Positions 33,900 through 54,515 of a stretch of DNA of 64,000 bases are shown piece by piece. Position 1 is the first letter of the stretch, and every line of letters starts with the position of its first letter. The notes beneath the pieces were generated by a model that was not told where the DNA came from, did no database searches, and worked only from the letters and a program-made list of their open reading frames with translations. A program made the position numbers and the translations under genes. The DNA is from Aporrectodea caliginosa (Eukaryota; Annelida; Clitellata; Crassiclitellata; Lumbricidae), in the NCBI GenBank assembly GCA_020284085.1, contig JACEVL010000464.1, forward strand, positions 22,501 through 86,500, written 5' to 3'.

Positions 33900-34015
33900 C
33901 TGAGCACGAGTAGTGAACACAGGATTTCCGCAGTGACAACAGAACATCAAAGGGATCCGAAGAATTTGCACATGGACAGAGAAACTACAAACATCAGTTA
34001 TATATATATATATTA
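33900..34015 (+). CDS. Possible fourth exon of the CARD gene, running into a transposon
   Basis: After an acceptor (CTCCTTATTGCAG) a phase-0 frame reads LSTSSEHRISAVTTEHQRDP, KNLHMDRETTNISY and then runs into (TA)n. The first stop is the TAG of the transposon terminus at 34014. Phase matches the preceding exon, and the composition (Ser/Thr/His/Glu-rich linker) continues it. No good donor lies before the TA tract. Either the exon was interrupted by the insertion, ending the protein after the CARD-linker part, or splicing skips it. Confidence 0.5.
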
Positions 34016-36112
34016 GAGTGGTCCACGACTACATGGTAAAAAGTAAAGTTTCAGTTTTTAATTATTAGAAGGTGCCAATGGAGTCCACTATATACAAAAA
34101 TAATTCAGGTGCAATTTCATCAAAATTTGAGAATATTTAGGGGTTGCGCAAGTGATTAGAAGTTTCACTCACCTTGTGTCATTTTGCTCTTCGATGGGCG
34201 CTCAAAGTCTCATCAAGATTCCAGAAGACTGGGCTTTCAGAATAGCTCAGAGAGAAGGTCTAAGGGGTTATAAGGCACGAGAGGATAGAGTCTTGATTCA
34301 CAAAATGGAAAAGAAATTTATTAAAGTAAAGACCTACATAAGAGCAGCGTGAGAGATCAAAGAATGATATGGAAGTTTTAACAAGCACAGTAGGATCTGG
34401 AGTCGAGCAGAAGTGATAAGGAAACACCTGAGGAAGGCAGTTACACATGTTGTGGTAGTCTATAAAAGAGGATGAAAAACAACAATCATCATCTGCACAG
34501 CTCAGCAAGAGAGCCTCTGTGACTAAGCAGAAAGCTGCAGCTTTGGATCAAACAAAAGTCACTAGCATGGCAGCAACACATCCACATCTATTGGCTGCAA
34601 CTGTTCAATCTCTAGGTCATGAAGTTCGGGACTCGCATATGAGTAGCAGTTCTATTCGCCGAGCTTGAAGATTTTATCAAGAAGAGCGTGTTTCTATGAA
34701 CAAAAATGAATTCTCTCCAGATTGTGCAATGGTTGTTCATTGACACGGTATGCTGTTGCCCGACATCACTGGCTGCGAGAAGGTATAGATCGGCTGCTTA
34801 TGATTGTGTCTGGCATTGGAACAGAGCAACTTCTACGTGTCTTGAAGATTAACTCAGACACTGGAGAAGCTCAGGCAAGCGCCGTGATTATCTACACAGA
34901 TGACTGGTACCTGAGAAGGAAGATTAAGGGGATGTGCTTTGACACCACAACGAGCAATACTGGACAGAAAGCTGGGACGAGAATTCTGATAGAAAAGGGA
35001 CGTGGTCGGAACTTATTTCATCTAGCAGGTCGTCACTACGTGATGTTAATTGCTGATGAAAAGGCATTCATTGTCATGAAAATTGTTTCCTCAACTGGTC
35101 AAGATATTCTAATACTTCACCGTTTTCTTGACCGTTATCGTCGAAATGACTCGAGTAGGTTTGAGACAGCAGTGGATTACTGATTTCGGGGAGCGAGTTA
35201 TTGCTTTTGCTGCAACAAAGCTGGCGGCCAATCATCAAAGAGATGATTGTATCGAGCTTCTTGAATTAGTAGTCATTTTTTTGTGGAGCCCAACTCAAAG
35301 AATTCACTTTATAGCGCCTGGAGTCTTATTCATTCAAGACGTGGATGTTTCGATCAGTAAAATGCTTCGATCTCTTTCAAACTGAAGCCAGTTGATGACA
35401 GGGGTATTTTCAATTTCCTTCTATTTGTCTGTGATGTGTAAGTCCAAGCATGGTTTCAAACTTCCTGTCCTGTCTCGGCTTCTGCAATTGACTGAATACA
35501 GAAACCAAGAAATTGGTCAGGTCACCACTACAGCATTCCACCCGAAAGCTGGAATGAAAATGAAGATTATCTTGAATGACAGGCAGTCGTCATGGCACTC
35601 AAAGTAGTCAACGACACCGCAGAGAGAAGTGTAAAGCTAATCCATGAGTACAACTCAATCCTGACAAATGACGAAGATCACAAACAGTATTGGCTTCAAG
35701 TTGTTGATGCGCATCACAATCAATTTCCTGACTCAAACAAGAACACATTGCTGTCAAGTTTGGATTGTGCCGCTGTCAGTGCTGAAACGACCACTCAATG
35801 AAGACATTTTAAATATTTCTGAAGTTTTCTCTTTAAAACTAGCATTTTGCCTACCCAAAACGCTAAATTTAATCACAGACTTTAAACCCTGAAACGGTGA
35901 ATACATTGTCATGCCTTTGTACTGATGTTTGTTTGCCATCAAGGCGCAGTGTTGAATTCAAGTATACATAACATAACTTTGGGTGGCTTGCGCAACCCCT
36001 AAATATTTTTCAATTTGCTCACATTTTCAGTATGTTAGTTTTTTAATAGATGGACTGCGATGGTGGGTTCTAATCTTGAACTTTCGAGAAAAAAGTTTTT
36101 TGGACCACACTA
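34014..36112 (+). mobile_element. TAGRGTG-family DNA transposon, copy a
   Basis: The termini are TAGAGTGGTCCA (34014) and its inverted match TGGACCACACTA (36101-36112). They sit in (TA)n on both sides, so a target duplication cannot be read. At 2.1 kb it contains a broken transposase on the plus strand. Related copies: 36209-37655, 48423-50438 and 52356-54230. Confidence 0.8.
34700..35800 (+). pseudogene. Transposase of the TAGRGTG family, copy a (broken)
   Basis: Blocks in order: YAVARHHWLREGIDRLLMIV, GTEQLLRVLKINSDTGEAQA, KIKGMCFDTTTSNTGQKAGT (first part of an RNase H-like core, with an Asp in CFDTT), RNLFHLAGRHYVMLI (LACRHH in the other copies), IDRTDFGERVIAFAATKLA-like sequence around 35170-35230, RDDCIELLELVVIFLWSPTQ, IHFIAPGVLFIQDV, and MALKVVNDTAERSVKLIHEY (NDxAE block). 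Frame shifts separate these near 35160, 35390 and 35590. A third acidic residue in NDTAE and a CxxHH-like insertion would fit a hAT-like catalytic fold, but this is inference from motif order only. Not active. Confidence 0.7.
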
Positions 36113-36208
36113 ATATATATATATATAATTATATATATATATATATATATATTATAATTATATATATTTATATATTTATATATTTATATATATATTATAT
36201 ATATATAT
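36113..36208. repeat. (TA)n between two transposon copies
   Basis: About 95 bases of TATATA/TATTTATA separate copy a from copy b of the TAGRGTG family. Similar TA tracts precede copy a (33998-34013) and copy c (48316-48422). Confidence 0.9.
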
Positions 36209-37655
36209 TAGGGTGTGTTTAAAAATTGAAGTTTCAAAATTAATATCGGCGTTGTTGTTTTTGTGTTCCACCTTGAGGAAAATTGTCATTTGCCAAATTA
36301 GACAAAAATCGGAATAGATTTAGAACTGGCGCAAAGCCTCGGAAGATTTATCACGAAAACAATGTAATACATTGTCATTTTCAAAGATTCAAACAACTTT
36401 TAACACTTAAACATAAAATATAAGGCAAACTCAAAAGAATCGTCAGTTATTTGTAATTTCTTTATTCCCTTTAGTGCTTTTCGGAACTTGTTGCGATGGC
36501 ACCATTTGCAGAACAAACTGTTTTTCTTACTCATTTCGGACCAGGGCTTCATTGAAGGACTGCATGAGAGCCACTCCTTTCTCCGCCAAATCGTTCGTCA
36601 CTTTTAGGGCGGATATGATATTTTTGCCTCACTGTATGATTGTTCTGACTCCCATTGTTGCGGGTCTCGATCAAGAAAAGAGTCATCCATCCGAGGATCT
36701 GGAATATTTTGGTGCTAGAAGTGGTGAAGAAATCGGCAAGTGCTTTTGTAGGTGGATTATGTATTGGAGGAAGTCTCTTTGGAGGTTCGTCGGATCCCTG
36801 ATTGTTTCGCATGCTGTAGACCATGCGCTGTTTTTCGTCGAAGGTGACTGAATCATCAAAAGGCTGAGGCCTACCAGGGTCTCCGACAGATACCAAAGGT
36901 GTCGGGGAAAAGCTGTTAGGGCGACCTGTGAGGGTACGTATGGATTGCCTTCAGGAATTGAAGATCGTTCCTTGGGGCTTCAGCGGGTGACGTACAGGTG
37001 AACCAGTAGGCTACTTCACGTAAGTTGTTGTCACAAAAAGGGACACTCGAAGTAAATGATTCCACACCTTTTGAAAGTAGGATTGTCGAGATGCCCTCTC
37101 TGAGCTCTGGCGTTGTTGAATGGGAAACTGATCCCTGAAAAGCCACATCTTGATCGCATAGATCGCACGTGCCATCCAACGCGCGCGGTGAAATGCATCT
37201 GGGTACCTGAACTTTATTCCTTTCGGTGGAATTCCTCCTCGAAAAATGACTGTTAGTTCTAGTAGCTCGTTGTAGTCGTCTCAGTGGTTTTCGGTACTCA
37301 GTTGTTGCAATGCGAAGGTGATCACATCGTCTCGAATTTCTGTGACACGCTGTGCTGTATCTTTATCATTCATTGCTGTGCGATACTTGGCCTGATCGAT
37401 TTGCGGCCAGAAGTCACGGGAATGACTTAATAGTTCCAATTTTGGAGACCTTGCAGAATCATGCAGTGAAAACACCTTTTCCAGAACATTTTCAGACACA
37501 TGATGTCGACAGGCAAGGTTCAAGAGGTCCTTTCCTAATTCCGCATCCAGCTTGATGCACACGCCGCCCTTGCAACCCGTGTTACTCGCCGTTGTGTCGA
37601 AACACATGTCCACGATTCTGTCAGTAGAGGAGAGGGACGGCACCTGGCGCATTTG
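36209..37655 (-). mobile_element. TAGRGTG-family DNA transposon, copy b (one end missing)
   Basis: It begins TAGGGTGTGTTTAAAAATTG, identical to copy c, and follows it base by base with few differences to about 37650. The other terminus is absent. The transposase runs on the minus strand, 3' end first. Confidence 0.85.
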
Positions 37656-37706
37656 ACCTAAATATTGGTCAAAATCACCCATTTTCGCCATGCACGGACC
37701 TAACAT
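36474..37706 (-). pseudogene. Transposase of the TAGRGTG family, copy b (broken)
   Basis: Minus-strand blocks: DRIVDMCFDTTASNTGCKGG, LGKDLLNLACRHHVSENVLE, KVFSLHDSARSPKLELLSHS, DFWPQIDQAKYRTAMNDKDT, AQRVTEIRDDVITFALQQLS, then after frame changes LVHLYVTR-like sequence, PPTKALADFFTTSSTKIFQI, NDLAEKGVALMQSF-like sequence near 36590 and the C-terminal KNSSKRH-like end. CFDTTASNTG, LACRHH, DD..TFAL and the ND.AE block are shared with copies a and c. Several frameshifts. About 90% identical to copy c by eye. Confidence 0.75.
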
Positions 37707-37988
37707 AGGCTTAAATCAGCAAACACTAACCTATGTTAGGCCCAAATCACCCATTTTCACCATGCACGGGCCTAATCCTTGGTCAAAATCACTCACCCCA
37801 CCATGCAAACACTGGCCCAGAGGTCGACAACTACTAACTACTGGCGCTCAATTGCGTCCGCGCGTTTTCCTAAAGTTTCCGGCGAGTCAGCATTTTCATC
37901 GAAACTATCGCCCGTGCTCTTATGAGGTGAACGTTGAGGTAATTTCCAACAGTTTCGATGAGTCATCATCACAAACTTTTTTCTTGCG
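37656..37988. other. Short inverted phrases upstream of the Rho-N ORF
   Basis: The phrase TTGGTCAAAATCACCCATTT and CATGCACGG.CCTAA recurs three times (37670, 37745, 37785), with an inverted CCTAACATAGGC / CTATGTTAGGCC. No coding sequence is supported. Confidence 0.5.
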
Positions 37989-37997
37989 TATATAAAA
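37989..37997 (+). promoter_or_regulatory. TATA-box-like element
   Basis: TATATAAAA lies 44 bases before the ATG at 38033, about where a TATA box would sit for a short 5' leader. This is suggestive only. Confidence 0.4.
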
Positions 37998-38032
37998 TGT
38001 ACGAAAATATTTTCACGACACCATTTAAAGGA

Positions 38033-38446
38033 ATGCAGACCCAATATAAAATGGACTATACGAAGAAAACTGTTAACGAATTAAGAAAAATCGCCAAGCA
38101 GAGCGGTATGGTTAGATATACGAGATTACGGAAAGCGGATTTGATCGCTAAAATTGAAGCTAACGAGACTCAAACACTAATCTTCTCACATTTTACACCA
38201 ATCTCGCCTAATACCAGTTCGGAGATTGAAATCTCACCACAAACACCCACGCTAACCTCAAGAGCACGAAAAGTATACGACAAAACTATGTTAGCGATTG
38301 ATACATGTGCTAAAGCGATTGAAAGGAAGATACCTAAGAACCTGTTGGAAATCGTAAAGAAGAAATTATGGCCGAGTCAAAAAAAAATTACAAAAATTAC
38401 TTCATATTTTAGGAAACTCTTTTCAATAACTCTTTTAAATAAATAA
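38033..38446 (+). CDS. Small protein with a Rho-N/SAP-like helix pair
   Basis: I prefer the ATG at 38033 (MQTQYKMDYTKK) to the in-frame one at 37958, because the TATA-like box lies between them; M at 38051 is equally possible. Residues about 7-42 read MDYTKKTVNELRKIAKQSGM and VRYTRLRKADLIAKIEANE, the pattern T..ELR.IAK..G...Y..LRK..LI..I of Rho-N/SAP-type nucleic-acid-binding modules. The middle is Ser/Thr/Pro-rich. The end (residues about 85-138) is basic and helical: VYDKTMLAIDTCAKAIERKI, PKNLLEIVKKKLWPSQKKIT. Rho-N-like modules occur in plastid and bacterial proteins and in products of large DNA viruses and Polinton-like elements, so a mobile or viral origin is possible. The stop overlaps AATAAA (38438-38443). 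The 13-bp minisatellite begins inside the last codons. Confidence 0.6.
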   Translation: MQTQYKMDYTKKTVNELRKIAKQSGMVRYTRLRKADLIAKIEANETQTLIFSHFTPISPNTSSEIEISPQTPTLTSRARKVYDKTMLAIDTCAKAIERKIPKNLLEIVKKKLWPSQKKITKITSYFRKLFSITLLNK

Positions 38447-40668
38447 CTCTTTTCAATAACTCTTTTCAATAACTCTTTTCAATAACTCTTTTCAATAACT
38501 CTTTTCAATAACTCTTTTCAATAACTCTTTTCAATAACTCTTTTCAATAACTCTTTTCAATAACTCTTTCAATAACTCTTTTCAATAACTCTTTCAATAA
38601 ATTTCAATAACTCTTTTCAATAACTCTTTTCAATAACTCTTTTCAATAACTCTTTCAATAACTCTTTTCAATAACTCTTTTCAATAACTCTTTTCAATAA
38701 CTCTTTTCAATAACTCTCTTTCAATAACTCTTTTCAATAACTCTTTTCAATAACTCTTTTCAATAACTCTTTTCAATAACTCTTTTCAATAACTCTTTTC
38801 AATAACTCTTTTCAATAACTCTTTTCAATAACTCTTTTCAATAACTCTTTTCAATAACTCTTTTCAATAACTCTTTCAATAACTCTTTTCAATAACTCTT
38901 TTCAATAACTCTTTTCAATAACTCTTTTCAATAACTCTTTCAATAACTCTTTTCAATAACTCTTTTCAATAACTCTTTTCAATAACTCTTTTCAATAACT
39001 CTTTTCAATAACTCTTTTCAATAACTCTTTTCAATAACTCTTTTCAATAACTCTTTTCAATAACTCTTTTCAATAACTCTTTTCAATAACTCTTTTCAAT
39101 AACTCTTTTTTTTTCAATAACTCTTTTCAATAACTCTTTTCAATAACTCTTTTCAATAACTCTTTTCAATAACTCTTTTCAATAACTCTTTTCAATAACT
39201 CTTTTCAATAACTCTTTTCAATAACTCTTTTCAATAACTCTTTTCAATAACTCTTTTCAATAACTCTTTTCACTCTTTCAATAACTCTTTTCAATAACTC
39301 TTTTCAATAACTCTTTTCAATAACTCTTTTCAATAACTCTCAATTTCAATAACTCTTTTCAATAACTCTTTTCAATAACTCTTTTCAATAACTCTTTTCA
39401 ATAACTCTTTCAATAACTCTTTTCAATAACTCTTTTCAATAACTCTTTTCAATAACTCTTTTCAATAACTCTTTTCAATAACTCTTTTCAATAACTCTTT
39501 TCAATCACTCAATAACTCTTTCAATAACTCTTTTCAATAACTCTTTTCAATAACTCTTTTCAATAACTCTTTTCAATAACTCTTTTCAATAACTCTTTTC
39601 AATAACTCTTTTCAATAACTCTTTTCAATAACTCTTTTCAATAACTCTTTTCAATAACTCTTTTCAATAACTCTTTTCAATAACTCTTTTCAATAACTCT
39701 TTTCAATAACTCTTTTCAATAACTCTTTTCAATAACTCTTTTCAATAACTCTTTTCAATAACTCTTTTCAATAACTCTTTTCAATAACTCTTTTCAATAA
39801 CTCTTTTCAATAACTCTTTTCAATAACTCTTTCAATAACTCTTTTCAATAACTCTTTTCAATAACTCTTTTCAATAACTCTTTTCAATAACTCTTTTCAA
39901 TAACTCTCTTTTCAATAACTCTTTTTCAATAACTCTTTTCAATAACTCTTTTCAATAACTCTTTTCAATAACTCTTTTCAATAACTCTTTTCAATAACTC
40001 TTTTCAATAACTCTTTTCAATAACTCTTTTCTCTTTTCAATAACTCTTTTCAATAACTCTTTTCAATAACTCTTTTCAATAACTCTTTTCAATAACTCTT
40101 TTCAATAACTCTTTTCAATAACTCTTTTCAATAACTCTTTTCAATAACTCTTTTCAACTCTTTTCAATAACTCTTTTCAATAACTAACTCTTTCAATAAC
40201 TCTTTTCAATAACTCTTTTCAATAACTCTTTTCAATAACTCTTTTCAATAACTCTTTTCAATAACTCTTTTCAATAACTCTTTTCAATAACTCTTTTCAA
40301 TAACTCTTTTCAACTCTTTCAATAACTCTTTTCAATAACTCTTTTCAATAACTCTTTCAATAACTCTTTTCAATAACTCTTTTCAATAACTCTTTTCAAT
40401 AACTCTTTTCAATAACTCTTTTCAATAACTCTTTTCAATAACTCTTTTCAATAACTCTTTTCAATAACTCTTTTCAATAACTCTTTTCAATAACTCTTTT
40501 CAATAACTCTTTTCAATAACTCTTTCAATAACTCTTTTCAATAACTCTTTTCAATAACTTTTTCAATAACTTTTCAATAACCCTTTTCAATAACTCTTTT
40601 CAATAACTCTTTTCAATAACTCTTTTCAATAACTCTTTTCAATAACTCTTTTCAATAACTCTTTTCAA
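38415..40668. repeat. 13-bp minisatellite, about 170 units
   Basis: Tandem copies of AATAACTCTTTTC run for 2.2 kb, with rare short units (lacking one T) and a few scrambled spots (39265, 39505, 40025, 40155, 40310). The first unit overlaps the 3' end of the preceding ORF. Single units also survive at 42446-42503 in the second copy of the flanking duplication. Confidence 0.98.
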
Positions 40669-40854
40669 TGACTACACATAAATAGTTGATTTTCAATGGG
40701 CCTTTCAATGTCTCCCCAATAAGACGTCACTGACTTTTTTGATATTTTGAATGGCCAAAAAGGTACTGGGGCGAAAATAACTCTCGACCCAGAACCTTTT
40801 GAGTACTGGGGCTGATGAATGAAGGAGAAAGGACTGAGAGAAACTCTTTTCCTA

Positions 40855-40855
<1 letters not shown>

Positions 40856-40922
<67 letters not shown>

Positions 40923-41150
40923 TAATAATAATAATTTTTCCTTTATTGAAACATTTTCATATCGCAACCGGTAACAGTTTACAGTTATGCAATTCAAAAC
41001 TCTTTTCATGAACGCTTTTTGACAGAAGACATAAATCTTAACTACCAGAACAGACAGCCTGCAAACACAAAGCAAAATCCTCCCTAAGGGGCTCGAACTC
41101 GGTACCTCAATAACTCTACGCCAGATATTATCCAATGCGCTATCGGGCCC
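40856..41150 (-). mobile_element. tRNA-derived SINE, copy 2 (minus strand)
   Basis: On the minus strand it begins GGGCCCGATAGCGCATTGGA (A-box-like TAGCGCATTGG) with a B box GAGTTCGAGCCCC. The body shares GGCTGTCTGTTCTG and TAGTTAAGATTT with the copy at 48055, and the end is AATAAAGGAAAAATTATT followed by (ATT)n to 40858. The second copy of the surrounding duplication (42540-42560) lacks it, reading GAGAGAAAGGCGTAGACAGA across the site. Confidence 0.8.
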
Positions 41151-41700
41151 TAGACAGATGCTTCTGCACTAGATGATGGTAGATGGATAAAGTCAATTAC
41201 CATAAAAGCATGTTCTTTGGACAGTGGACACAGAGAGGTAACGCTTTGTAACACTAGCTATGGACGACTCAGTATGTTCTTATTAAGCGTGGTTGTACCT
41301 TAACACACGTCCTATCAATCTTTAATCTAATAACGCTATTCTGATCTATTCAATGATTATCCAATAGGCCAATTCTTCCCTGTGACAATAGATCTTTCGC
41401 AGAGTATTATGTACAGCTAAATCTATAGGCCTATGTTTTATCCTTATAGATTATAGCGTATCTCGTTATAATTCTATTCTACTTTAGCCTACTCCACTGC
41501 TGGTATTCTATGCAATTGTTTAATTTTATGTTCTATTCAACCCCTCATGTAGCCTAATGGTAAAGTTGCCAATTCTGAATTTCTAGCTACTAAATGGTGA
41601 ATTCAATGAGTGAATATGTACAATAATTGCGCATTCATTACACTCTTTTTATAACTCTGGTCACTAAACTCGTTTTGCATGCAATTATTTCGACAGACTG
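41151..41700. repeat. Segmental duplication R4, copy 1
   Basis: This matches 42552-43085 in the same orientation. Shared stretches include GATGATGGTAGATGGATAAA, GTCAATTACC, AAAAGCATGTTCTTTGGACA, ATAGCGTATCTCGTTATAAT and GAATTCAATGAGTGAATATG. It is non-coding. The spacer 41700-42440 contains no recognisable feature. Confidence 0.85.
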
Positions 41701-42445
41701 ATGTTTATGCGTAAAAAGAGCGATTCAGTCAGCTGCTCTACTGACATGTCTAACTCAAGGCACGCGGGACATAAGATTGCCGACGCCTGCTATAATTCAT
41801 AACTACCTATTATTTTGAACCTAATCAGCTAGGTTGAGGAGTCCGGAACTCCGGATTTTTCCCAACTTCCGCTGATCAATGCTAATAATAAGTCGTTTTT
41901 ACTCAGATCATGCAGATATTTATTTTTGTATTAGTTATATTCACATTCAAACGAATGATAAATCGTTCAAAACTTTGGAGAATAGTTAGGGCAATAGTAA
42001 ATTTGGAAAGGTATCTAGACATGTTTTTTTCAAATAAATATAGAATGATTTTTTAAATTCATGTCATTTCCTCTTTTATTCATGTTCTATTGCCCTGAAA
42101 TAAAACAACAGAACAGGTGTTAAATTAAATGATCGGTTCAGTGCTGAAATCTAAGGTAAAGGCAACATAATAGGCTATTATTGATAACTGTTTACAGAAA
42201 AACGTGTGCTGGACCTAACCAAGCTAACAATAATATTGTATTATCTAATCACCTTACTTTGTCAACGCCGAGATGATAATAATCTGTTAATGCTCAGTCC
42301 ATCTAACTTTATTGCAACTTAGGGTTATGGCTAATCGATTAGGCATTTTCTAATTTCGAGCAGTCTTGATTATGCGGTAAAGAGCTGTCCAATAAATTGT
42401 CAATAATGGGGACAGTATTCGGGTTGGCAAATTTGGCAAAAAGAA

Positions 42446-43085
42446 CATTTCAATAACCCTTTTCAGAGAAAGTGGATTGGTCAAATACTCTTTTCAATAA
42501 CACTGCTGAAAACTATCAATAAGGGATGAAAGAAGGAGAAAGAAGGACTGAGAGAAAGGCGTAGACAGATGCTTCTCTATTAGATGATGGTAGATGGATA
42601 AAGTCAATTACCAGAAAAGCATGTTCTTTGGACATAGAGAAGTACCGCTTTGTAAGACGGGTATAAATTAGAGGCTAGCTATAGACTCAGTGTGGTCTTC
42701 TTAAGCGTGGTTGACCTTAGCGAACGTCCTATCATTCATAATCTAGTCAACGCTATTCTGACCTGCCCATGATTATCCTATATGCTTGCTTATGATAATA
42801 GATCTTACTCAGAGTATTCTGTACAGCTAAATCAATAATGTTTAACCTTATAAATTATAGCGTATCTCGTTATAATGATATTCTAGTTTACTCCACTGCT
42901 GGTTTTCTATGCTATTGTTTCATTTTTATGCTCTATTACATGCAATGGTAAAGGTGCCAATTCTGAATTTGTAGCTACTAAATGCTGAATTCAATGAGTG
43001 AATATGTACAAAAATTGTGCATTCATTACAGCTTATAACTCTGGTGACTTAACTCGTTAAGTTGCATGCAAGCTAACTCATTGCC
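42446..43085. repeat. Segmental duplication R4, copy 2
   Basis: The direct copy of 40.8-41.7 kb without the SINE, preceded by two isolated units of the 13-bp minisatellite (TTTCAATAACCCTTTTCAG and ACTCTTTTCAATAAC). It therefore shows the state before SINE insertion and repeat expansion, apart from later changes. Confidence 0.85.
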
Positions 43086-44070
43086 ACCACGTGCATTCAT
43101 TCATGCTTTTAACCTTACGATAACAGGAGTATAAAAAAGATCTAATTGTGTGCCTAATTAACTGTCATCTCTGCCATCTTCTTGTTGGTGTATACTACTC
43201 TCCAAATTAAAGTCCCAATTATTCAATAATGCTTGCCCTAATCCATCCGATCCGCCCTCTTCCATGCTTTCTCGTCCTCAACGAAATCAAACTTAACAGC
43301 TCCTCTGCCTCCACTCTAAATTGGTCACTCTGTAAAGCGGACTCGGACCTTCTCTGGAAATCTATGACAAAACGCAGCGCTCGTAAATAATCTGGTGTCA
43401 ATAACGCTTAGGTTCAGTGTTGAGTTTTAGGAAATTGCGATTTACGTTTACAATGCAACGATTGTCATACTTCTGTGTGTTCTAAATCCTCCTCCTTTGA
43501 CCCTTTTTTCCACTGTGCCTTTGGACCTTTTGGACACTGCTGGGTCCTCCTCGTTCGATAGATCAACGGCATTTTCATCGCTTTTCTCCAGCCTTTCGTC
43601 GACTTCCGCTATATCACGACGATTTCTGTTCTCCTCGGCCAGACACGACCCTTCAATCAATCAAACGAAATGGAGTCTTTTCGAAGCTATAATCTTAACA
43701 TTCACTTGGGGGCCTTTGTTCTCTGTATTTGGTGGATTGCTATTATTATGCCCCGTGCATCGATTTCAGCAAAATCGATTAACCAAAAAACGCTGTTTGG
43801 CTTCAAATAAAAGGTTAGATAATCAAATTGGACAAGTGGATATTCAGGTAATCTTTTGCAAATATAGTCTAATAATACTTAAAACGGTCGTTGACGCGCT
43901 TTCAGAGGCGCCAAAAATATGGACAGGTACTGAAGTGTGATTTTTGGCATGTTATATATATATATATTTATATATATAACTTATTCGTTTTATTGAGAAA
44001 AACAATCTGACAAAAACGCAGAAATGCTAACATGAGTGATAATGGAAAATTAAAGTTCATTAGAAGATTT
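43086..44070. other. Unassigned; two weak overlapping reading frames
   Basis: A plus-strand frame (43497-43940) and minus-strand frames (43660-43448, with LAEENRNRRDIAEVDERLEK, and 43401-43219, with YLRALRFVIDFQRRSESALQ) are open. Neither shows a known domain or splice support. The charged minus-strand frames look more protein-like. A (TA)n tract lies at 43955-43978. Confidence 0.25.
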
Positions 44071-44079
44071 TAGAATAAA

Positions 44080-44631
44080 CTAGTAAATATTTTTATATAA
44101 TGATCTGGGAATAAATTGAGAGTTGTCCTTGGGTGGGAGAGTATGGTTGTGTGCTCTAGGTCTTAATTGGTGAGAGGAGAGGGGTCGGAGTGGAGGTAGG
44201 AGTTGGTGAAGTACATGCTTGGGGTTGTGTAATATGGAGAAAAGGAGTTTCGCATCGGCTATATTGGCAAGTTCAGAGACTGTTGGAAAGGATTGCTCTA
44301 GGTAACCTAGGCGTTTGGCTCTTTTTAGGAGTTTTTCCAGGCGTTCTTTATCGGAAGCCAGCGTGAGACCCCACCAGGATGGGGAGGCATATAGAAGTTT
44401 AGCAACGGTAGTGGCTTTGGTTACATTATGGATGGATGAGGAAGAAAGGCCATGGGTTTTGAGTTTTCTGATAGCATAAAAAGAGGAGGAGCAAGTTGCT
44501 GTGAGGTGGTCTATATGGGCTGTGAGTTTGAGATTATCTTGAAGGATGACACCCAGTATTTTCAAAGTCTTAACTCGGGTAATACTGTGGACTGTGGAGG
44601 CATGAGTCAGCCTCCAAAGCTGTTTAGGCAA
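44080..44631 (-). mobile_element. LINE C-terminal ORF (SPSWWG type), 183 codons, open
   Basis: On the minus strand one uninterrupted frame reads VKTLKILGVILQDNLKLTAH, IDHLTATCSSSFYAIRKLKT, HGLSSSSIHNVTKATTVAKL, LYASPSWWGLTLASDKERLE, KLLKRAKRLGYLEQSFPTVS, ELANIADAKLLFSILHNPKH and ends FIPRSLYKNIY. ILGV.L...L....HI and LLYASP.WWG, followed by the RAKR.GYL block, are the standard region after the RT in CR1/Jockey-like LINEs. It is truncated at the 5' side (no RT), but the C-terminus is intact, including the stop. Confidence 0.85.
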
Positions 44632-44789
44632 GGGTAATTAATACTAATTATAAATATTATAAATATGGTCTAAAACGCCTTTTTGAAACTATAAAAGGAA
44701 AGAAAGGAAATACATGTTGTAATTATCATCTATCTTATTATTATTAATATTACAATCTTTAAAATTGGAATTACTACTACTAGAAGTTA

Positions 44790-44797
44790 TTCTACTG

Positions 44798-44892
<95 letters not shown>
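44790..44892. repeat. (CTG)n(CTA)n compound microsatellite
   Basis: About 17 CTG units followed by about 13 CTA units. The poly-Ser frame on the minus strand is an artefact. Confidence 0.97.
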
Positions 44893-44899
44893 GATATTG

Positions 44900-46805
44900 C
44901 TGCTGTCATTAAGTATTGATTGAGTAACTAACATGTATTGTGTAATAATAAAAAGGAGAGCCACAGTTAGTATAAGTTATTGGCTTTTCTTGGCTTCTGT
45001 TGCACACAACCTTTTAATAATATCTGATTGCAGCTGCAACAGGTCTACTTGTTTTGTGCAATACACAACACTTGATATTGATGAAGGTTAGAAACGGAAA
45101 CAAAACAGTCGGGAAATTTCGAAAGTGAGAAAATAACAAAGTCGTGGAAGCGAAGTAGGCCCCATGACGCTCTTCTAAAAATATAGAAAAAAGCAGGAAA
45201 ACCTGCCGAAAAGTCGTATTCCTAAAAAATTAGTTAATGAGGCCTAAATGTTTGCGACATGAAACTTTCAACTATACAAGCGAATTTTTTAGCCACCACG
45301 TTGACCCAAATCTTAAAAACTAACATTATTCCCTTTTTTCCTTATAGTAGGGCCTACTCTTTGTGTCTGTAAGTTGTGAAGTGGTGTGTCTTCCTGCTTG
45401 ATAATTAAACGAATAATTATATCATCATTTAAATATTGGTGTCAAGCGCTTATAAAACGGTCTTAGAAACAATGACGAATTTATGGCATGATTGAAAGCT
45501 TTGATGGGTTACAAACGTCGTCTGCAGTATTTCACCACGGCCTTAAAACTCTGCTACGGAAAATATTGCACCACCACCTTGTAGACATATTTAAATCACC
45601 TCAGGATGAGCTACATATCAATAATTATATTTAAAGTATGTGTCTGTCGCCCTTTAGCCTCTATAACAGCTCCTGGATCTGCCAGAACTGTCGTAATGGC
45701 TAACAGTCTATTAGTTATAGAGCGAGAAACGTGTACCTTAATGCATAGGATTAGTATTTTATGCCTTACCAATCACCAAAACTGCGACTAGCACAGCAAC
45801 ATGGAGCTTCATATTCAGTAATCTTCAGAAACGCCTTTCGTGGATCTCGGCCAACGTAGAACTTCCGTTATGAAAGCGACTGCTGATTACTAACACAATA
45901 ACTTGCTTGGTGCTCTTAGGAACCAAATGGAAGCTTTTTATAGCGGTTCAGTTGCGTGTCTAGGCCCGGCTTAAACGGTTTAGGCTGTTTAGGCTATCAA
46001 ATCAAAGTTATAGTCGTCGTCATACTTTGCACACTGAAACTAATGTCTACAGATAGCAGGAAAATCTGTGTGGCTTGATTACACACTGATGTTTAGCATC
46101 TGTTAATGAAATTTTCCTTGGCTGAAATTCATAAAATATTTGGTAAGTTTGCAATTAAATATTTATTTGGAGCCATTTAGGCCATACGTGGTTCCCATAT
46201 GGGAAGACAAGCTTTACATTGCTCGAGCCACATAATGGTGTGCTGGTGGGGTAATAGATTAGCCAAGAAAGCCACGCTATACTGCCAAATTGCAGTCTAC
46301 AGTGTGTATGACTGTATGTTCCTTAGGCCTACCATCTTAAGAGTGTCTGATACTGACGGATATTAGTCGTAGAAGTTTAAGCCACCCGATTAGGAATTTG
46401 AATTCGAATACAAAAGCCAAATAACAGATGGATGTCAAAAACTTCATTGTAAATCGTTTTCCACCGTAGAGCCTACGTATTTGTTTTAAGAATTAATATT
46501 GAATTCTATGCAATTTAGCAATCTAGGCCTATTTATAGCCCTACGCCATTGTCAATTGTCAGACAGAAATATCAAAGCAGTCGATTAATAAGACCAAAAA
46601 ATATAGTCACTGGTCAGGAACGTCTTATGGCAAACATATGGAACCATAATTATGGTAAAATTGCCGATATGGCCTCTAAATGACATACACATAAAACAAC
46701 CATAAAATTCTGTATTATAAATTCATAAATAAAATGTACAAGAAATACGTCGGGGTATCAGGTTTCATGAATTTAGATGCCACTGCTGCTGCAGAAGGAA
46801 TACAA
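44900..46805. other. 1.9 kb without recognisable features
   Basis: This is A/T-rich DNA with short frames only, and I saw no match to repeats elsewhere in the window. It could be ordinary intergenic or intronic sequence. Confidence 0.5.
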
Positions 46806-46809
46806 CTCA

Positions 46810-46811
<2 letters not shown>

Positions 46812-46875
<64 letters not shown>
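46812..46875. repeat. (ATT)n microsatellite
   Basis: About 63 bases of ATT ending in ATAACAAA, immediately before the 150-bp tandem repeat. No LINE or SINE body is recognisable beside it. Confidence 0.95.
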
Positions 46876-46876
<1 letters not shown>

Positions 46877-46879
46877 ACA

Positions 46880-47740
46880 AATAGAGTGTCAAATTAAATA
46901 GATTCAAGGTCACCGAATCGATTTCTTGTAGTGCCAATAGTGTGCGAGTGTTACCTTCCAAGATGGCGGCCAATATGGCCGCCATAACACTAAAATGCAT
47001 ATCTCAGCTCATAGGCAAGCTACAGTAACAATTGAAGCGTCGAATTTAATATTTTAAGGTCAGTCAATCGATTTTTCATAGTAGTAATAGTGTGGGAATG
47101 CTACTATCCAAGATAGCGGACAAGATGGCCGCCAAAACACAAAAATTTGTATATCTCAGATCAAAATAAGCTACAATAACAAATGAAGTATCAAATTTAA
47201 TAGTTTCAAGATCAAGAAATCGATTTCTCGTAGTTGCAATAGTGTTAGACTGATACTATCCAAAATGGCCGCCAATATGGCCGCCAAAATAAAATATTTA
47301 TGTGTCACGTCATAGGTAAGCTACCGTAAGAAATAAAGTGTCAAATTTAGTATATTCAAAATCAAGGAATTGACTTATCGTAGTGGCAATAGTGTGTGAG
47401 TGTTTCTTTCCAAGATGGCGGCCAATATGGCCGCCAAAACACAAATAAAAATATCTTAGCTGATAGGTAAGCTACGATAGCAAATGAAGTGTCAAATTTT
47501 ATAATTTCAAGGTCAAACAGTCGTTTTTTCCCAGCAGCAAAAGTGTCGGGATGATACTATCCAAGATGGCGACCAATGTGGCTGCAGAAACAAAACATGC
47601 ATATTTCAGCTTTAAGTTTAGCTAAAATAACAAAAGAAGTGTCAAATTTAATACATTCAAGATCAACGTATCGATTTCTCGTAGTGGCAATAGTATGGGA
47701 GCGTTACTATCCAAGATGGCGTCCATTATGGGAACAGGTC
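46880..47740. repeat. ~150-bp tandem repeat, six units, with CCAAGATGGCGGCC palindrome
   Basis: The core recurs at 46958, 47108, 47261, 47410, 47559 and 47711, spaced 148-153 bases. The best core, CCAAGATGGCGGCCAATATG followed by GCCGCC, contains GGCGGCC and GGCCGCC as perfect inverted arms around AATAT. AAGATGGCGGC is the known binding consensus of YY1. The rest of each unit (GTCAAATTTAATA..TTCAAG, ATCGATTTCTCGTAGT) is A/T-rich and diverged by roughly 20%. Confidence 0.92.
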
Positions 47741-47746
47741 GATAGT

Positions 47747-47935
47747 CCGAAGGTTCGATAATCCGAAGGTTCGATAATCCGAAGGTTCGATAGTCCGAAG
47801 GTTCGATAGTCCGAAGATTTCATGGTAAAACATATAGGCTATGTAGAAATATATGTTTATGGGTAATCCGTATTTTACGTTGATAAATTCCTTGTCCGAA
47901 GGTTCGATAGTCCCGAAGGTTCGATAGTCCGAAAG
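47747..47935. repeat. 16-bp GGTTCGATAGTCCGAA tandem repeat, two blocks
   Basis: Five units at 47747-47815 and about three at 47893-47935 are separated by unrelated sequence. Both blocks are followed by the same words, TTTCATGGTAAAACATATA and GTGTCATGGTAAAACATATA, so the whole ~120-bp piece is itself duplicated. Confidence 0.9.
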
Positions 47936-48054
47936 TGTCATGGTAAAACATATATGTATATGTACATATATATATATATATATGTATATGTACATTATAT
48001 GTATATATAAGCATGTTTGTATAGGCCTACATATGTATTTATATCTATATACAT
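47936..48054. repeat. TA/TATG-rich simple sequence
   Basis: ATATATGTATATG-type low-complexity DNA. Confidence 0.85.
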
Positions 48055-48256
48055 GCCCGATAGCGCATTGGATAACATCTGGCACAGAGAGCGAGAGGTA
48101 CCGAGTTCGAGCCCCCGTTGGGCGGATATGCTTTGTAGGCTGCTATTAGGCCGTTGTATTGCAAGCTGTCTGTTCTGTTAGTAGTTAAGATTTCAATTGC
48201 ATAACATGTAAATGTACAGCACAGTGCGTTTGTCAGGCGCTTGATTAAAGAAAAGA

Positions 48257-48318
<62 letters not shown>
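48055..48318 (+). mobile_element. tRNA-derived SINE, copy 1
   Basis: The head reads GCCCGATAGCGCATTGGATA with an A-box-like region and a B box GAGTTCGAGCCCCCG, closing GTTGGGC (a tRNA-like 7-base end pairing with GCCCGAT by wobble). The ~130-base body contains AGGCTGCTATTAGGCCGTTG, CTGTCTGTTCTGTTAGTAGT and ATGTAAATGTACAGCACAGT, and ends GATTAAAGAAAAGATATTAT. The tail is (ATT)n (48256-48318). Pol III internal promoter boxes plus a repeat tail are the definition of a SINE. Its tail repeat matches the TAA tails of the LINEs in this window, which may supply its machinery. Confidence 0.85.
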
Positions 48319-48326
<8 letters not shown>

Positions 48327-48422
48327 TTATATATGCATAGTATATTATATATGATATATATAATTATGTGTGCATATGTATATATAATATATATGTATAT
48401 ATATGTATATATATATATGTAT
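48316..48422. repeat. (TA)n tract before transposon copy c
   Basis: TATATATA and TATGTATA simple sequence, as beside copies a and b. Confidence 0.9.
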
Positions 48423-50438
48423 TAGGGTGTGTTTAAAAATTGAAGTTTCAAAATTAATATCGGCCTTGTTGTTTTTGTGTTCCACCTTGAGAAAAATTGT
48501 CATTTGCCAAATTAGACAAAAATCGGAATAGATTTAGAACTGGCGCAAAGCCCCGGAAGATTTATCACTTAGAAAACAATGTAATACGTTGTCATTTTCA
48601 AAGATCCAAACAACTTTTAACACTTAAACATAAAATATAAGGCAAACGCAAAAGAAGAACCGTCAGTTATTTGTCATTTCTTTATTCCCTTTAGTGCTTT
48701 TGGGAACTTGTTTCGATGGTACTCCACCATTTGCAGAACAAACTGTTTTTCTTCCTCATTTCGGACCAGGGCTTCATTGAAGGACTGCATGAGAGCCACT
48801 CCTTTCTCCGCCAAATCGTTCGTCACTTTTAGGGCGAATATGATATTTTTTGCCTCACAGTATGATTGTTCTGACTCCCGTTGCTGCGGGTATCGATCAA
48901 GAAAAGAGTCATCCAATCCGAGGATCTTTAATATTTTGGTGGTAGAAGTGGTGAAGAAATCGTTAAGTGCTTTTGTAGGTGGATTAATTATGTATTGGAG
49001 GAAGTCTCTTTGGAGGTTCATCGGATCCCTGATTGTTTCGCATGCTGTAGACCATGCGTTGTTTTTCGTCGAAGGTGACTGAATCATCAAAAAGGCTGAG
49101 GCCTCCAACAGATACCAAAGGTGTCGGGAAAAAGGTGTTAGGGCTACCTGTGAGACTTCTTGTCAGGGTACGTATGGATTGCCTTCAGGAATTGAAGATC
49201 GTTCCGTGGGGCTTCAGCGGGTGGCGTACAGGTGAACCAGTAGGCTACTTCACGTAAGTTGTTGTCACAAAAAGGACACTCGAAGTAAATGATTCCACAC
49301 CTTTTGAGAGTAGGATTGTCGAGATGCCCTCTCTGAGCTCTGGCGTTGTTGAATGGGAAACTGATCCCTGAAAAGCCACATCTTGATCGCATAGATCGCA
49401 CGTGCCATCCAACGCGCGCGGTGAAATGCCCCTGGGTACCTGAACTTTATTCCTTTCGGTGGAATTCCTCCTAGAAAAATGACTGTTAGTTCTAGTAGCT
49501 CTTTGTAGTCGCCTCTGTGGTTTTCGGTACTCAGTTGCTGCAATGCGAAGGTGATCACATCGTCTCGAATTTCTGTGACGCGATGTGCTGCATCTTTATC
49601 ATCCATTGCTGTGCGATACTTGGCCTGATCGATTTGCGGCCAGAAGTCACGGAAATGACTGAATAGTTACAATTTTGGAGACCTTGCAGAATCATGCAGT
49701 GAAAACACCTTTTCTAAAACAATTTCAGACACATGATGTCGACAGGCAAGGCTCAAGAGGTCCTTTCCTAATTCCGCTTCCAGCTTGATGCACACGCCGC
49801 CCTTGCAACCCGTGTTAGGCCTACTCGCCGTTGTGTCGAAACACATGGCCATGATTCTGTCTTCAATCCCCAACTTCTTATCTCAGCCAAACATGCATCT
49901 GACATGACTGCAGCTGTCCTGGATTTGAGTTTGGGGATGGCCAATAGCTTGAATTGGTCACATACCAAGATACCATTATTGTTAATAATATTATAATCGA
50001 CTGCTTGATGCTAGATGCTTGAGCTGAGAGTCGTCTCGTTAGCAAAGAGTTTATAAATAGATGGCTAGTGTTATACCTTATTTACATTTATTTAACTGTC
50101 AAACGTCAACTCGATAGAAAGCACAGCTACCCGCCATTTGCAACACGAGATCAGTGACATAGACACCGTGAGGTCAGTGACGTCATTATCATGAATATGC
50201 ATTACCTGGGAGCCGGCAACTGAGAGGGGTCTAAGGATAGCATGCATTGAAATTGTGGATGCCTGTTACAGTATGCCACCTGTGTCCAATTTCGGTTGCC
50301 TTGCGCCAGTCCTAAATGTTCAGGTATCAAGATATAATTTCGGATATGGAGTTAATATATGAATTGGCATGATAATTCGACCAGGCCGGCAAAATATCTT
50401 TGAGTTGAAAATATCACATGTACCTTAAAAACACCCTA
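48423..50438 (-). mobile_element. TAGRGTG-family DNA transposon, copy c (both ends)
   Basis: It starts TAGGGTGTGTTTAAAAATTG and ends with the inverted terminus CCTTAAAAACACCCTA. The terminal match is TAGGGTGT(G/T)TTTAA. At 2.0 kb, with a transposase remnant on the minus strand, it is the longest copy of this subfamily here. No target duplication could be recognised: the left flank is simple TA/TG sequence, the right flank CTCAAGG. Confidence 0.8.
48674..49970 (-). pseudogene. Transposase of the TAGRGTG family, copy c (most complete, frameshifted)
   Basis: Blocks in order on the minus strand: VCDQFKLLAIPKLKSRTAAV, MSDACLAEIRSWGL, EDRIMAMCFDTTASRPNTGC, LGKDLLSLACRHHVSEIVLE, VTEIRDDVITFALQQLSTEN, HRGDYKELLELTVIFLGGIP, PGAFHRARWMARAIYAIKMW, LFRDQF, NPPTKALNDFFTTSTTKILK, LGLDDSFLDRYPQQRESEQS, ALKVTNDLAEKGVALMQSFN, EALVRNEEEKQFVLQMVEYH, RNKFPKALKGIKK and a stop. 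Candidate catalytic positions are the Asp of CFDTT, possibly the Asp of DD in EIRDD, and the Glu of ND.AEKG; LACRHH recalls the CxxH insertion and RARWM the RW motif of hAT/P-type transposases. At least four frameshifts. I do not recognise the family by name. Confidence 0.72.
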
Positions 50439-50439
50439 C

Positions 50440-51394
50440 TCAAGGCGTAGAAATGTGCTGGCTTCCGGTCGGCCGCTCGAACGAAACAGCGTAACGTTAC
50501 AGAGGTTGAGACAGAGCACCAGAGCTTCACACATTTCTCTTCTATTACATTTTAAAACGATACAATAAATAGAATCTCAGTTCGTGTTTAGAGTCTTTAA
50601 TTTCTAAAAACCAGTTTATAGCAGAAAAATTATGCCCTACCTTATCTTTGATATAGGCGATCTATCAAATATCAACCCTTACTTGTGAGTATTATTGTTA
50701 CATTGTGTATAATTATTATGTCAAACCGTATTCGGAATTTAGCGTTAACTTTTTTAAACTGCTTCTTATTTTATTATATTCCAGAAAAAAGATGAATAGC
50801 ACACGTTTTCAAGAGAAACCAATGAAGCCAAGAAAAGGAATATTGAATTCAAAAGAATTCCCTGTCGGAATACCCTCATGGAGCCCATATAGGTCCCATA
50901 TTCAAATATCGGACCCGTACATATCCCATGTGTACGTCCCATCTAATACCCATGGAAATGCTTGCAGTGTTAAAGAACCTCTTATACAAATTGTTTAGCC
51001 TAAGTTTTCTTTGAATAGTTTATTCAAGTCTAAATTTGACAACAAGCAACATTTCTGCCTGAGTCTTACAAATTCATAATACCTGTCATAAATTATACAT
51101 ATAAAAATATAGATCCGCACCAAATAAAGATTAATAAGCCAAATTCTAATAGTCTGATATTAACTTAACGACAAAATTAATATTCTTCTTCATTATCTCT
51201 CACTTATAAATGAACCCTATTTACGTTATCTATAGTCTCACCGTTCTAAGTCCGATCTCCGTTTACCATATGCCTGTCCAGCTTTCTGTCGTTTTGAATT
51301 TCTACAGGAACAGAATCTTAATACGTGTAAGCCACTTGTCATCGTCATACTCTCAATTGAACGCCTTTAGTCGTAATAGTAATCGAGTATTTAT
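50440..51394. other. About 950 bases without recognised features
   Basis: A/T-rich, with a short plus-strand frame (50705-50998, KKMNSTRFQEKPMKPRKG) that shows no known domain, no clear start context and no matching copy. It is probably non-coding. Confidence 0.45.
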
Positions 51395-51697
51395 AAAGTG
51401 CCACATAAAATCAGAGGCGCTCCCAATCCCGGCCAGGTTCTTCACTGTCATAGTGAGGTTTTCAGGCGCTTGCGGAACTGATCATAAGAAAGGGAATAGA
51501 GATCGGCCCTAAGAGATTGAGGCAGCCGGTTCCAGATAGAGGGCCCACAATAGCTAAACTCCTAAACTGGGCCATAGAAGTACGCGTTCGAGAGACAACC
51601 AAGTGGCCACTGGGCGAGTACCGACCCGAGGCACGATTAGGCAGAGAATAAACGGGAGTACAATAGGCCCTGAGATAGAGTGCAGAGTGAGATAGAG
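51395..51697 (-). mobile_element. LINE C-terminus (3' part of a split copy)
   Basis: The minus strand reads SHSALYLRAYCTPVYSLPNR, ASGRYSPSGHLVVSRTRTSM, AQFRSLAIVGPLSGTGCLNL and a frame-shifted ending, matching the YL......R.S......V+RT....G+R+FS..GP..WN.LP block of L2/CR1 LINEs. The rest of the same LINE continues at 54516 on the other side of a 2.8-kb insertion. The two pieces are joined by the 8-bp duplication AGATAGAG. Confidence 0.8.
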
Positions 51698-52355
51698 TAG
51701 TCCCCGGCGCCGCCGCCATCCGCCGCCGCCGCCAGTCGCTAAGCCCTCAAGTCGAAGTCAGTCGCTAAGGCTATCGACTGGACCAATTCACCACCGCCGC
51801 CGCCGCTAAGCCCTCAAGTCGAAGTCAGTCGCTAAGCTATCGACTGCTATCGACTTTGTCCACTTAATATATCAGCAGTCATTTATTTACTACCTTACTG
51901 CCTACCTAGTACTACTTACTTACTTTACTAGATAAACACTAACTTCCAAGGAGTCCATATTTAGACTTACTATCAACCATCGAAGCCTAATATGTATACG
52001 TCGATGCTATCAACAGTCAGATTTTCTGTCACATTATCTCACGCGGCGCACTTCTTTAGTTGAAAAGACGCTGGTTTTAGTGTCTTTAAACACGGTACAA
52101 CTAAAGATGATAACGGAAAAATTGATAATTATGTTTGTGAAAGAGGAAATAGGCGTCCATTTGCCCTTTCGAGAGAAATCCGGTGTTTGGGTCGATTCTG
52201 GTAAACAGTGGTAAGTCTGGGTGAGACATACATGTACCTACAATAGGCGTACTAATATAGGCAGACTTGAATGAAGCATGCTTTAGTTTCTTATCTGATT
52301 TAAATGTAACGCGACAATGATTTGATAATTCTGCCTTGGTTGGTGTATAGGCCAC

Positions 52356-54230
52356 TAGGGTGATTCAAGTTCTGTAGGAAAAAAATTAAGGTAGACAATT
52401 GAGAGAGGCTCTTTACTTTTTGAGTTCCTTTTACCACATAGAGCAAAACTGTGAAATTTGGCTGAATTTGGTTTGTATTTAGGACTGCCTCAAGAAGCTC
52501 AAAGTTTTATTTTATAGATAAATTTTATTAAATTAATTGTTTTTATTGTCAAGCATTTTAAATTACTTACTTACCTATTTCTTAATAAAGAACTAAAAAA
52601 GAACATACAAAATTACTCCTCCGTCACTGCATGTCCGTGCCCTAGTGCCAGGCAGTGCCAGTCCCAAACCCGGATGAAGGAGGAGGGCGATGCTAATGAT
52701 CTTTGTTATCACACAGTGTCGTTATCTGCAACTACTTCTACTACTACAAATATTAAGCATAAGTAAAATGGTGGATTGTGCAAACAACCAAATTTGTTAC
52801 TTTATTATTATAATTTATTAAAAACAAAATACTGCAAACTACTTGAGAAATTCTTTTTAGTATTTTTTAATAAAGAAAATAATATTATGGTTTAAACCAG
52901 GTCAAAGACTTTCATTTTATCTTATTGGAGAACCTCAGGAAACATTTTGGGGTAGAGTATTACCTACAAGCTTAGGTAGTTTGAATATATTTTGATATGA
53001 CTGCTTCCAACATGGGTCGCCTCAATGGAGTTTGCGTTTTAATGGAAAAAACTTGAAAATAAATTTGCTATGGCTTGCTTATCACCATCATTTTCATTAA
53101 GTACTATGTGTAGCCTACACGTATTCAATGCAGCTTTTGGTCCAACATGAGATCCAGATGTATTACTTTTTAAAAGATTCCAACAATATTGACCCAGAAT
53201 TTACCAAGAAATGTACTGTTCTAATACAGACAATTGTCTAAATGAACAGTTAAAGACAATAAAGATGGAGATGATACAATTTATAATGGATATTCTACAC
53301 TAAAATTGAACTTGAAGCTCCTGAGGGAAGATTATAGAGAATTATTGGAGCTCGGTCTAATCTCTCTTACAGAGTTTCCACCACATGGAGCAAATTCTGA
53401 GTGCCAGATACATTCCATCTTGCACACTGGATGACTAAACTCATTTACATTTTACAGATTTTTTATTTCAAAGTAAATTCAAGCTAAGACAAATGAAGCC
53501 GCTGGTTGTTTGCAATTTGGATTTTTTATAACTTTAGTTTATGTGAAAGCATGGATCACATGTCCCAATGCATGTGATCTGCACTTGATATAAGATCTAA
53601 CAAAATATTCATCAACATCCAAAGTAATTTTGCAAACAGGATTGAAAGCAATTGGTCGTCACTTATGGCAAAGAAATGGCACCACTTGGTTTTTTCCAAA
53701 AACGCTTCCACAGAAACTAAACGTCTCATAGAGGGATTGCACTAGCATCAAACTTCAACTCAACCTTGAAGAAGCATGAAGATTAAAAACAATTTTTGTT
53801 CCAAATTATAGAAGACCATCGGAAACAATTTCCAAATTCAATCAAAAAACACTTTTACCTGAATGTAATGAATAGTGTTGTCTAGTAAATACAGTACAGA
53901 AATTGGGTACTTACATACTTTCTACCAATTTCATTTTAATTAATTAAAAACATATTGGGATTTAAAATAATTATACACAATAGCCTCTTAGGCAGTGCTA
54001 CATTGTTTTTAAGACTGCATTATTTAAATTTTCCAGTAAAATTGTTTGTTTACTAAAATTCAAATTTTCGACAAAACGAGTTAAAGTTAAATAATTTCAA
54101 GGTCGTTGAGGCAGTACTAAATATTATCCAATGTCATTAAGATTTTTCCCCTTTATTTTATTACCAAAAGGAACAGAAAAAAGCAAGAGCACCAAAAATT
54201 TAAGATTTTCAATTTTTGTGAATCACCCTA
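52356..54230 (+). mobile_element. TAGRGTG-family DNA transposon, copy d (9-bp target duplication)
   Basis: The exact 12-bp terminal inverted repeats TAGGGTGATTCA and TGAATCACCCTA are flanked by an exact 9-bp duplication ATAGGCCAC (52347-52355 and 54231-54239). This copy is nested in element e. At 1875 bp it is A/T-rich and the most decayed copy. Because the duplication is clear here, the family's target-site length can be put at about 9 bp. Confidence 0.9.
53330..53875 (+). pseudogene. Transposase remnant of copy d
   Basis: Recognisable pieces: REDYRELLELGLISLTEFPP (matches HRGDYKELLELTVIFLGGIP of copy c), HTGWMTKLIYILQIFYFK (matches ARWMARAIYAIKMWLFR), YVKAWITC, ALASNFNSTLKK and IIEDHRKQFPNSIKK (matches VEYHRNKFPKALKG). 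Their order is the same as in copy c, with many stops and frameshifts between. The CFDTT region was not recognisable. Confidence 0.65.
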
Positions 54231-54515
54231 ATAGGCCACTATTTGCTATTTATTTACCACCGCTTTATTTGGCCACAAACCATGACGTGCAGCGAAACGT
54301 GACTTTACAGTACGCCGTAAAATGCATTTTATTGTTAGGTAACTAATAGAGCCTACCTGTACCCGAGAAGTCGATATCAAGTCGTTAAGTCAGTCGATAA
54401 GCCTAAGAGACTTAGTCAGTCGATAAAGCAAGCGACTTGGTCAAGTCAGTCGCTAAGTCAGTCGCTAACTCTCCAAGTCAGTCGCTAACGCTTCTGTTAG
54501 CGACTCCGGGGACTA

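Follow-up and report, generated by a model that had tools for sequence, protein, structure and literature searches.

Four decayed transposon copies (copies a–d) in a 64-kb stretch of DNA from the annelid Aporrectodea caliginosa (bases 22501–86500 of contig JACEVL010000464.1; hereafter the window) are very probably dead members of a divergent family of hAT-type cut-and-paste DNA transposons. The placement within hAT is based on the predicted transposase fold, 8-bp target-site duplications and terminal inverted repeats (TIRs) beginning TAGRG, while published termini of the hATm group are identical to those of the family. The notable outcome is a family without a Pfam label and without a BED finger, recently active and with composite ends of fixed unequal spacing. 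An earlier note on this DNA could match the elements to no named superfamily; that view does not hold given the features above, which fit hAT, and the hATm termini found in the accessible part of a published description (PMC6004678), and an unnamed superfamily is not warranted.

While the reading frames of all four window copies are broken, the genome contains intact relatives of approximately 3.1–3.4 kb with a single frame of approximately 765–770 aa. A tblastn search of 1,097,852,775 bases with the family protein P0045, in which 58 of 10,099 candidates were scored and copy numbers are therefore lower bounds, gave at least 63 matches. One 3352-bp element occupies at least 22 loci (L009–L030). 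Over the aligned parts, the other 21 share 99.79–99.94% identity with L010, the reference copy, with exactly two mismatches in 15 of the 21 and three to six in the other six (three of these with a gap). L018 lacks approximately 106 bp internally and the alignment of L019 begins only at position 387. The near-identity of these 22 copies indicates a recent burst, and the 3352-bp element is probably active. An uninterrupted reading frame of 770 aa is present in L010 and one of 764 aa in L035, a member of another subfamily. Many of the burst insertions sit in (TA)n or (GTAT)n repeats.

Exact 11-bp ends were found on both sides at 20 of the 22 burst loci, and 16 of these 20 are flanked by an exact 8-bp duplication (1,000 shuffled pairings: mean 1.24, maximum 6), although in 7 of the 16 the duplicated bases form a simple repeat such as ATATATAT, which has little proof value. 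The other four comprise one duplication of 7 bp, one of 8 bp with a mismatch and two loci without a clear duplication. Among 18 other loci, the duplication is an exact 8 bp in 7 (including one ATATATAT) and 8 bp with a mismatch in 1, with none in the remaining 10, in several of which the end pair was not recognised; 10 further elements gave an exact 8 bp in 7 (4 of these in AT repeats), 7 bp in 1 and none in 2. This tabulation of duplication lengths, which the earlier note had suggested as a check, shows that 8 bp predominates, and 8 bp, as in hATs, is the usual target duplication of the family. A 9-bp duplication as the rule was rejected because most copies with clean ends have 8 bp, copy d being an exception.

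A protein search with a piece of copy b recovered 43 proteins, and a hybrid read-through query recovered 1,291 (E ≤ 0.001) among 7,991 scored. Among the best 120 of these 1,291 proteins, many have lengths of 730–777 aa and a precomputed Pfam domain is absent from all; the names seen for family proteins were ‘uncharacterized’ or ‘hypothetical’. The named hosts seen are crustaceans (Eriocheir sinensis, whose family member is P0066, Amphibalanus amphitrite, Oratosquilla oratoria and Chionoecetes opilio), and a scan of viral contigs revealed no relatives. In an alignment of 88 sequences, H-W-D315, K317, D382-T-T, N387, C411 and H414 are invariant, among others. The alignment supports an assignment in hAT order, with CFDTT containing the second Asp (D382), LACRHH the CxxH motif (C411, H414), RW the tryptophan motif (R521, W522) and ND.AE the Glu (E724), while the first Asp is most likely D315 in HWDGK; the two Asp, CxxH, RW and Glu residues expected of a hAT transposase are present. 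These last three motifs had been read in the same way from the window, where CFDTT was left as either the first or the second Asp and the first was not placed.

Structure prediction and fold searches indicate that the transposase resembles known hAT transposases, with an RNase H-like core, a Hermes-type helical insertion and D315, D382 and E724 as the acidic residues, in agreement with the RNase H-like enzyme of hAT order that had been proposed from the sequence and with the fold that structure prediction had been expected to return. The structural alignment with Hermes of the house fly (PDB 6dwz, 4d1q and 8edg) extends to Hermes residue 609 of 612, at 9–12% identity over the structural alignments. 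The family shares with Hermes the catalytic fold with its insertion (predicted here), the DDE spacing, the CxxH, RW and ER motifs and an 8-bp duplication with T2/A7 bias. In contrast, a BED finger at the N terminus and numerous short subterminal repeats characterise Hermes, whereas the N-terminal region of the family is helical without conserved Cys and its inner sites lie at a fixed distance from the ends. Structures of KDZ, Kolobok and Novosib elements were not seen in the fold searches, which are uninformative on those groups.

From a reference set of 64 hATs drawn by Hermes, two alignments with shared members (41 and 14 sequences) were compared with the family using hhalign, giving a probability of 14.9 (E 0.0018) and of 69 (E 4.4e-5 over 72 columns), and both matches pair D382 with the second hAT Asp and CxxH with CxxH. 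The two hAT alignments matched each other with a probability of 100 (E 7e-114, 523 columns), a generous control given the shared members. These weak scores place the family at the edge of sequence detection from hATs. Comparison by hhalign with the single sequences of Hermes or the P transposase gave no significant match, the family profile had three matches among PDB sequences (best E 0.042) with no transposase among them, and Pfam scans of pieces of the window returned nothing useful. Affiliation to the Mutator-like elements (MULEs) or to P-type transposons, rather than to hAT, is very improbable: the MULE/IS256 group (Muta1; ISCth4) has CxxH and W motifs and 8–9 bp duplications in common with the family (PMC5225508), but the structural score for ISCth4 is lower, the TIRs differ and no MULE Pfam model was seen, while P elements, considered below, have 8-bp duplications and unequal spacings.

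The termini read TAGGGTG...CACCCTA in the elements examined, with copy a differing (TAGAGTG / TAGTGTG), and TAGGG, as well as the TAGAG and TAGTG of copy a, conforms to the hAT TIR consensus [T/C]A[A/G]NG (PMC6027215). Perfect TIRs are 3–12 bp in five representatives, and internal to the TIR both ends carry an inverted inner site, ATTTAGRACTKGCKCAA or a near variant. The TTTAG of this site starts 123 bp from the 5′ end in all five subfamily representatives (L010, L031, L044, copy a and copy d) and 111, 111, 111, 110 and 110 bp, respectively, from the 3′ end, with L035 deviating (5′ inner site at 128). Shuffled ends matched the inner motif at 14 or more of 16 positions in 17 of 20,000 trials, compared with 14–16 in the ten real ends, from which the motif was itself derived. 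The pattern TAGGGTG-N100-126-TTTAGRACTKGC has 523 + 479 = 1,002 matches in the genome and none in the reversed control, on which basis chance TIRs were rejected. Spacing was evaluated for 100 of the 1,002 matches, with the gap restricted by the pattern to 100–126 bases, and was 111 in 34 and 123 in 36, the remainder being scattered from 109 to 132. Among these 100, neighbouring opposite-strand pairs within 6 kb were unequal in 22 of 22 cases and exactly 123/111 in 18, although the 3352-bp element accounts for six of these pairs and common ancestry may explain all 22.

Most subfamilies examined also have an intermediate site. In L010, L031, C16, C36, C57 and C60 it begins at 53 and 41, preceding the inner site by 70 bp on either side (L035 and C7 are off by a few bases). 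Another version, beginning at 50 and 38 and 73 bp ahead of the inner site, is found in L038, L041, L043, L044, L047, copy c, C37 and C4 (C27 and C61 deviate), whereas copies a and d, C74 and one end of L045 showed no recognisable site of this kind. When the two ends of seven elements were slid against each other, identity peaked (0.48–0.61) at a shift of 12, or of 13 for copies a and d; no other shift exceeded 0.38 in five of the elements, 0.45 in copy a or 0.44 in copy d. Both ends thus share the same block, which lies 12–13 bp deeper at the 5′ end than at the 3′ end. Comparable inner sites were not found in the literature searched, with Repbase, supplements and subscription papers outside its scope. 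The spacing difference recalls the Drosophila P element, which according to the accessible part of PMC7776569 has 31-bp TIRs, transposase sites a further 9 and 21 bp inwards, 8-bp duplications and 11-bp subterminal repeats approximately 100 bp in. By arithmetic the P sites start at 41 and 53, the positions of the intermediate site in several subfamilies here, and the 8-bp duplications and the subterminal inverted repeats approximately 100 bp in are likewise common to both, but the shorter spacing is at the 5′ end in P and at the 3′ end in the family.

Some features of typical hATs were not seen. PF05699 (hATC) was not detected in 10 of 10 family proteins (E ≤ 1) or among 25 of the 61 Pfam families listed for 51 members (E ≤ 10), and the same searches gave no other hAT or BED model, in keeping with the earlier description of the transposase as unfamiliar. 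N-terminal to residue 380, no Cys column is conserved (≥60%) in the 88 sequences, evidence against a BED finger in the family; an N-terminal finger of this type is said to be universal in hATs. We hypothesise that the spacing difference is needed for pairing of the ends, a rule that we infer rather than observe because unequal-end pairs are also expected from common descent. A separate lineage of superfamily level, with P-like composite ends and a divergence from hAT that predates the BED finger and the hATC sequence signature, would account for a similarity to hATs so low that profiles scarcely detect it, for the lack of BED and for a 12-bp spacing difference resembling that of P elements (accessible part of PMC7776569). 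We consider such a split unlikely, as fold, motif order, duplication length and TIR all fit hAT, and superfamily rank is a matter of convention. Its fuller form, a superfamily-level sister of hAT that lacks a Pfam name, has another DNA-binding domain in place of BED and requires its composite ends to differ in spacing by roughly one turn of the helix, as in P elements and RAG signals, is equally unlikely.

Compatible with placement in hAT, and only a little short of an even chance in our estimation, is that the family is hATm itself, a Repbase group proposed in 2018 as a fourth hAT family, in which case the novelty is limited to the absence from Pfam and the inner sites. The accessible part of PMC6004678 describes hATm ends as TAGGGTG...CACCCTA, with duplications of 8 or 9 bp in 28 members and a wide host range, and Hydra hATm-3 is shown with TATATATA (PMC8721813), a TA-rich target in at least one hATm member that parallels the many insertions in TA or GTAT repeats here. 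However, the same part of PMC6004678 reports for hATm-6 a PF05699 domain and TIRs 417 and 575 bp in length, in contrast to the family, in which PF05699 was not seen and perfect TIRs are 3–12 bp, and that part does not mention inner asymmetric sites; the likeness is one of termini, duplications and target sites. A weak objection is that hATm is given as 0.00% of the Eriocheir sinensis genome in the accessible part of PMC9107163, yet P0066 comes from that host.

Within the window, tblastn with eight family members as queries (E ≤ 0.01) matched only copies a–d, confirming, together with the sequence itself, the four copies, their coordinates and their ends as first described. They had been taken for one family sharing an ordered set of motifs; they do belong to one transposon group, but one of at least three subfamilies, with b and c together, a apart and d most divergent, and the full motif set is readable in b and c alone, a and d retaining some motifs in decayed form. 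The inner motif (≤3 mismatches) occurs seven times in the window, always at copy ends (a 2, b 1, c 2, d 2), whereas 100 shuffles averaged 1.52 occurrences and never exceeded 5.

Copy a (34014..36112, forward strand) has TIRs TAGAGTGGTCCA / TAGTGTGGTCCA and (AT)n on both sides, making its duplication uninformative. Its transposase remains (34149..35795, +) lie in several frames and are closest, among the eight queries, to P0078 (37–53% identity by piece), and its inner sites are at 34135..34151 (+; 5′, 123 bp from the end) and 35988..36004 (−; 3′, 110 bp). Copy b (36209..37655, reverse strand) is decayed and has lost its 5′ end, retaining only the 3′ end, TAGGGTGTGTTTAA, at 36209, with an exact inner site 111 bp from it (36318..36334, +) and transposase remains at 36460..37652 (−; tblastn), two main pieces of which are 67 and 72% identical to P0044. 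Near copy b lies a 13-bp tandem array (38415–40673; unit AACTCTTTTCAAT, approximately 175 copies, 94% matches). Copy c (48423..50438, reverse strand) has TIRs at both ends and lacks the N-terminal coding part; its transposase remains (48680..49989, −; tblastn) are 68–84% identical to P0044 by piece, its inner sites are at 48532..48548 (+; 3′, 111 bp) and 50301..50317 (−; 5′, 123 bp), and its flanks (left atatgtat, right ctcaaggc) show no matching duplication. Copy d (52356..54230, forward strand) is decayed, with TIRs TAGGGTGATTCA at both ends, inner sites at 52477..52493 (+; 5′, 123 bp) and 54106..54122 (−; 3′, 110 bp) and transposase remains (52958..53846, +; tblastn) 24–56% identical to family members by piece. 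The exact 9-bp duplication reported for it, ATAGGCCAC, is read in the sequence at 52347..52355 and 54231..54239 (both +). The word AGTCAGTCGCTAA is repeated on either side of copy d (51704–51900 and 54380–54500), perhaps as a host repeat that received the insertion. A 150/301-bp tandem array at 46874–47731 shares its words AATATGGCCGCCAAAACACAAA with the flank of L019 and may belong to a dispersed repeat, and a 183-aa open frame at 44080–44631 (−) may resemble the C-terminal region of a LINE-encoded reverse transcriptase.

The transposase would comprise, according to the structural model, an N-terminal region that is helical and shows no recognisable zinc finger, followed by an RNase H-like core that, like that of Hermes, is interrupted by a large and predominantly helical insertion. 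On the Hermes model, it would cleave at the TAGRGTG ends through D315, D382 and E724, form hairpins on the flanking DNA with the aid of CxxH and RW, and join the ends to target strands 8 bp apart. Each composite end would consist of the terminal TAGRGTG, the intermediate site, where present, and the inner site. Hermes and Kat1 (accessible part of PMC4763223) suggest that the N-terminal region may bind the inner sites, and the unequal spacing may help to pair one end of each kind.

The near-identical intact copies in the genome make a probably active element directly testable. In P elements and in the RAG/V(D)J signals, paired ends differ in spacing. If the 12-bp difference is needed for pairing here, a spacing rule like that of P elements and V(D)J would exist also with a hAT-type enzyme, and the family would offer a simple system for asking why unequal ends pair. 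Should the family instead be a superfamily-level sister of hAT, it would provide a link between hAT chemistry and the P/RAG-like pairing of unequal ends.

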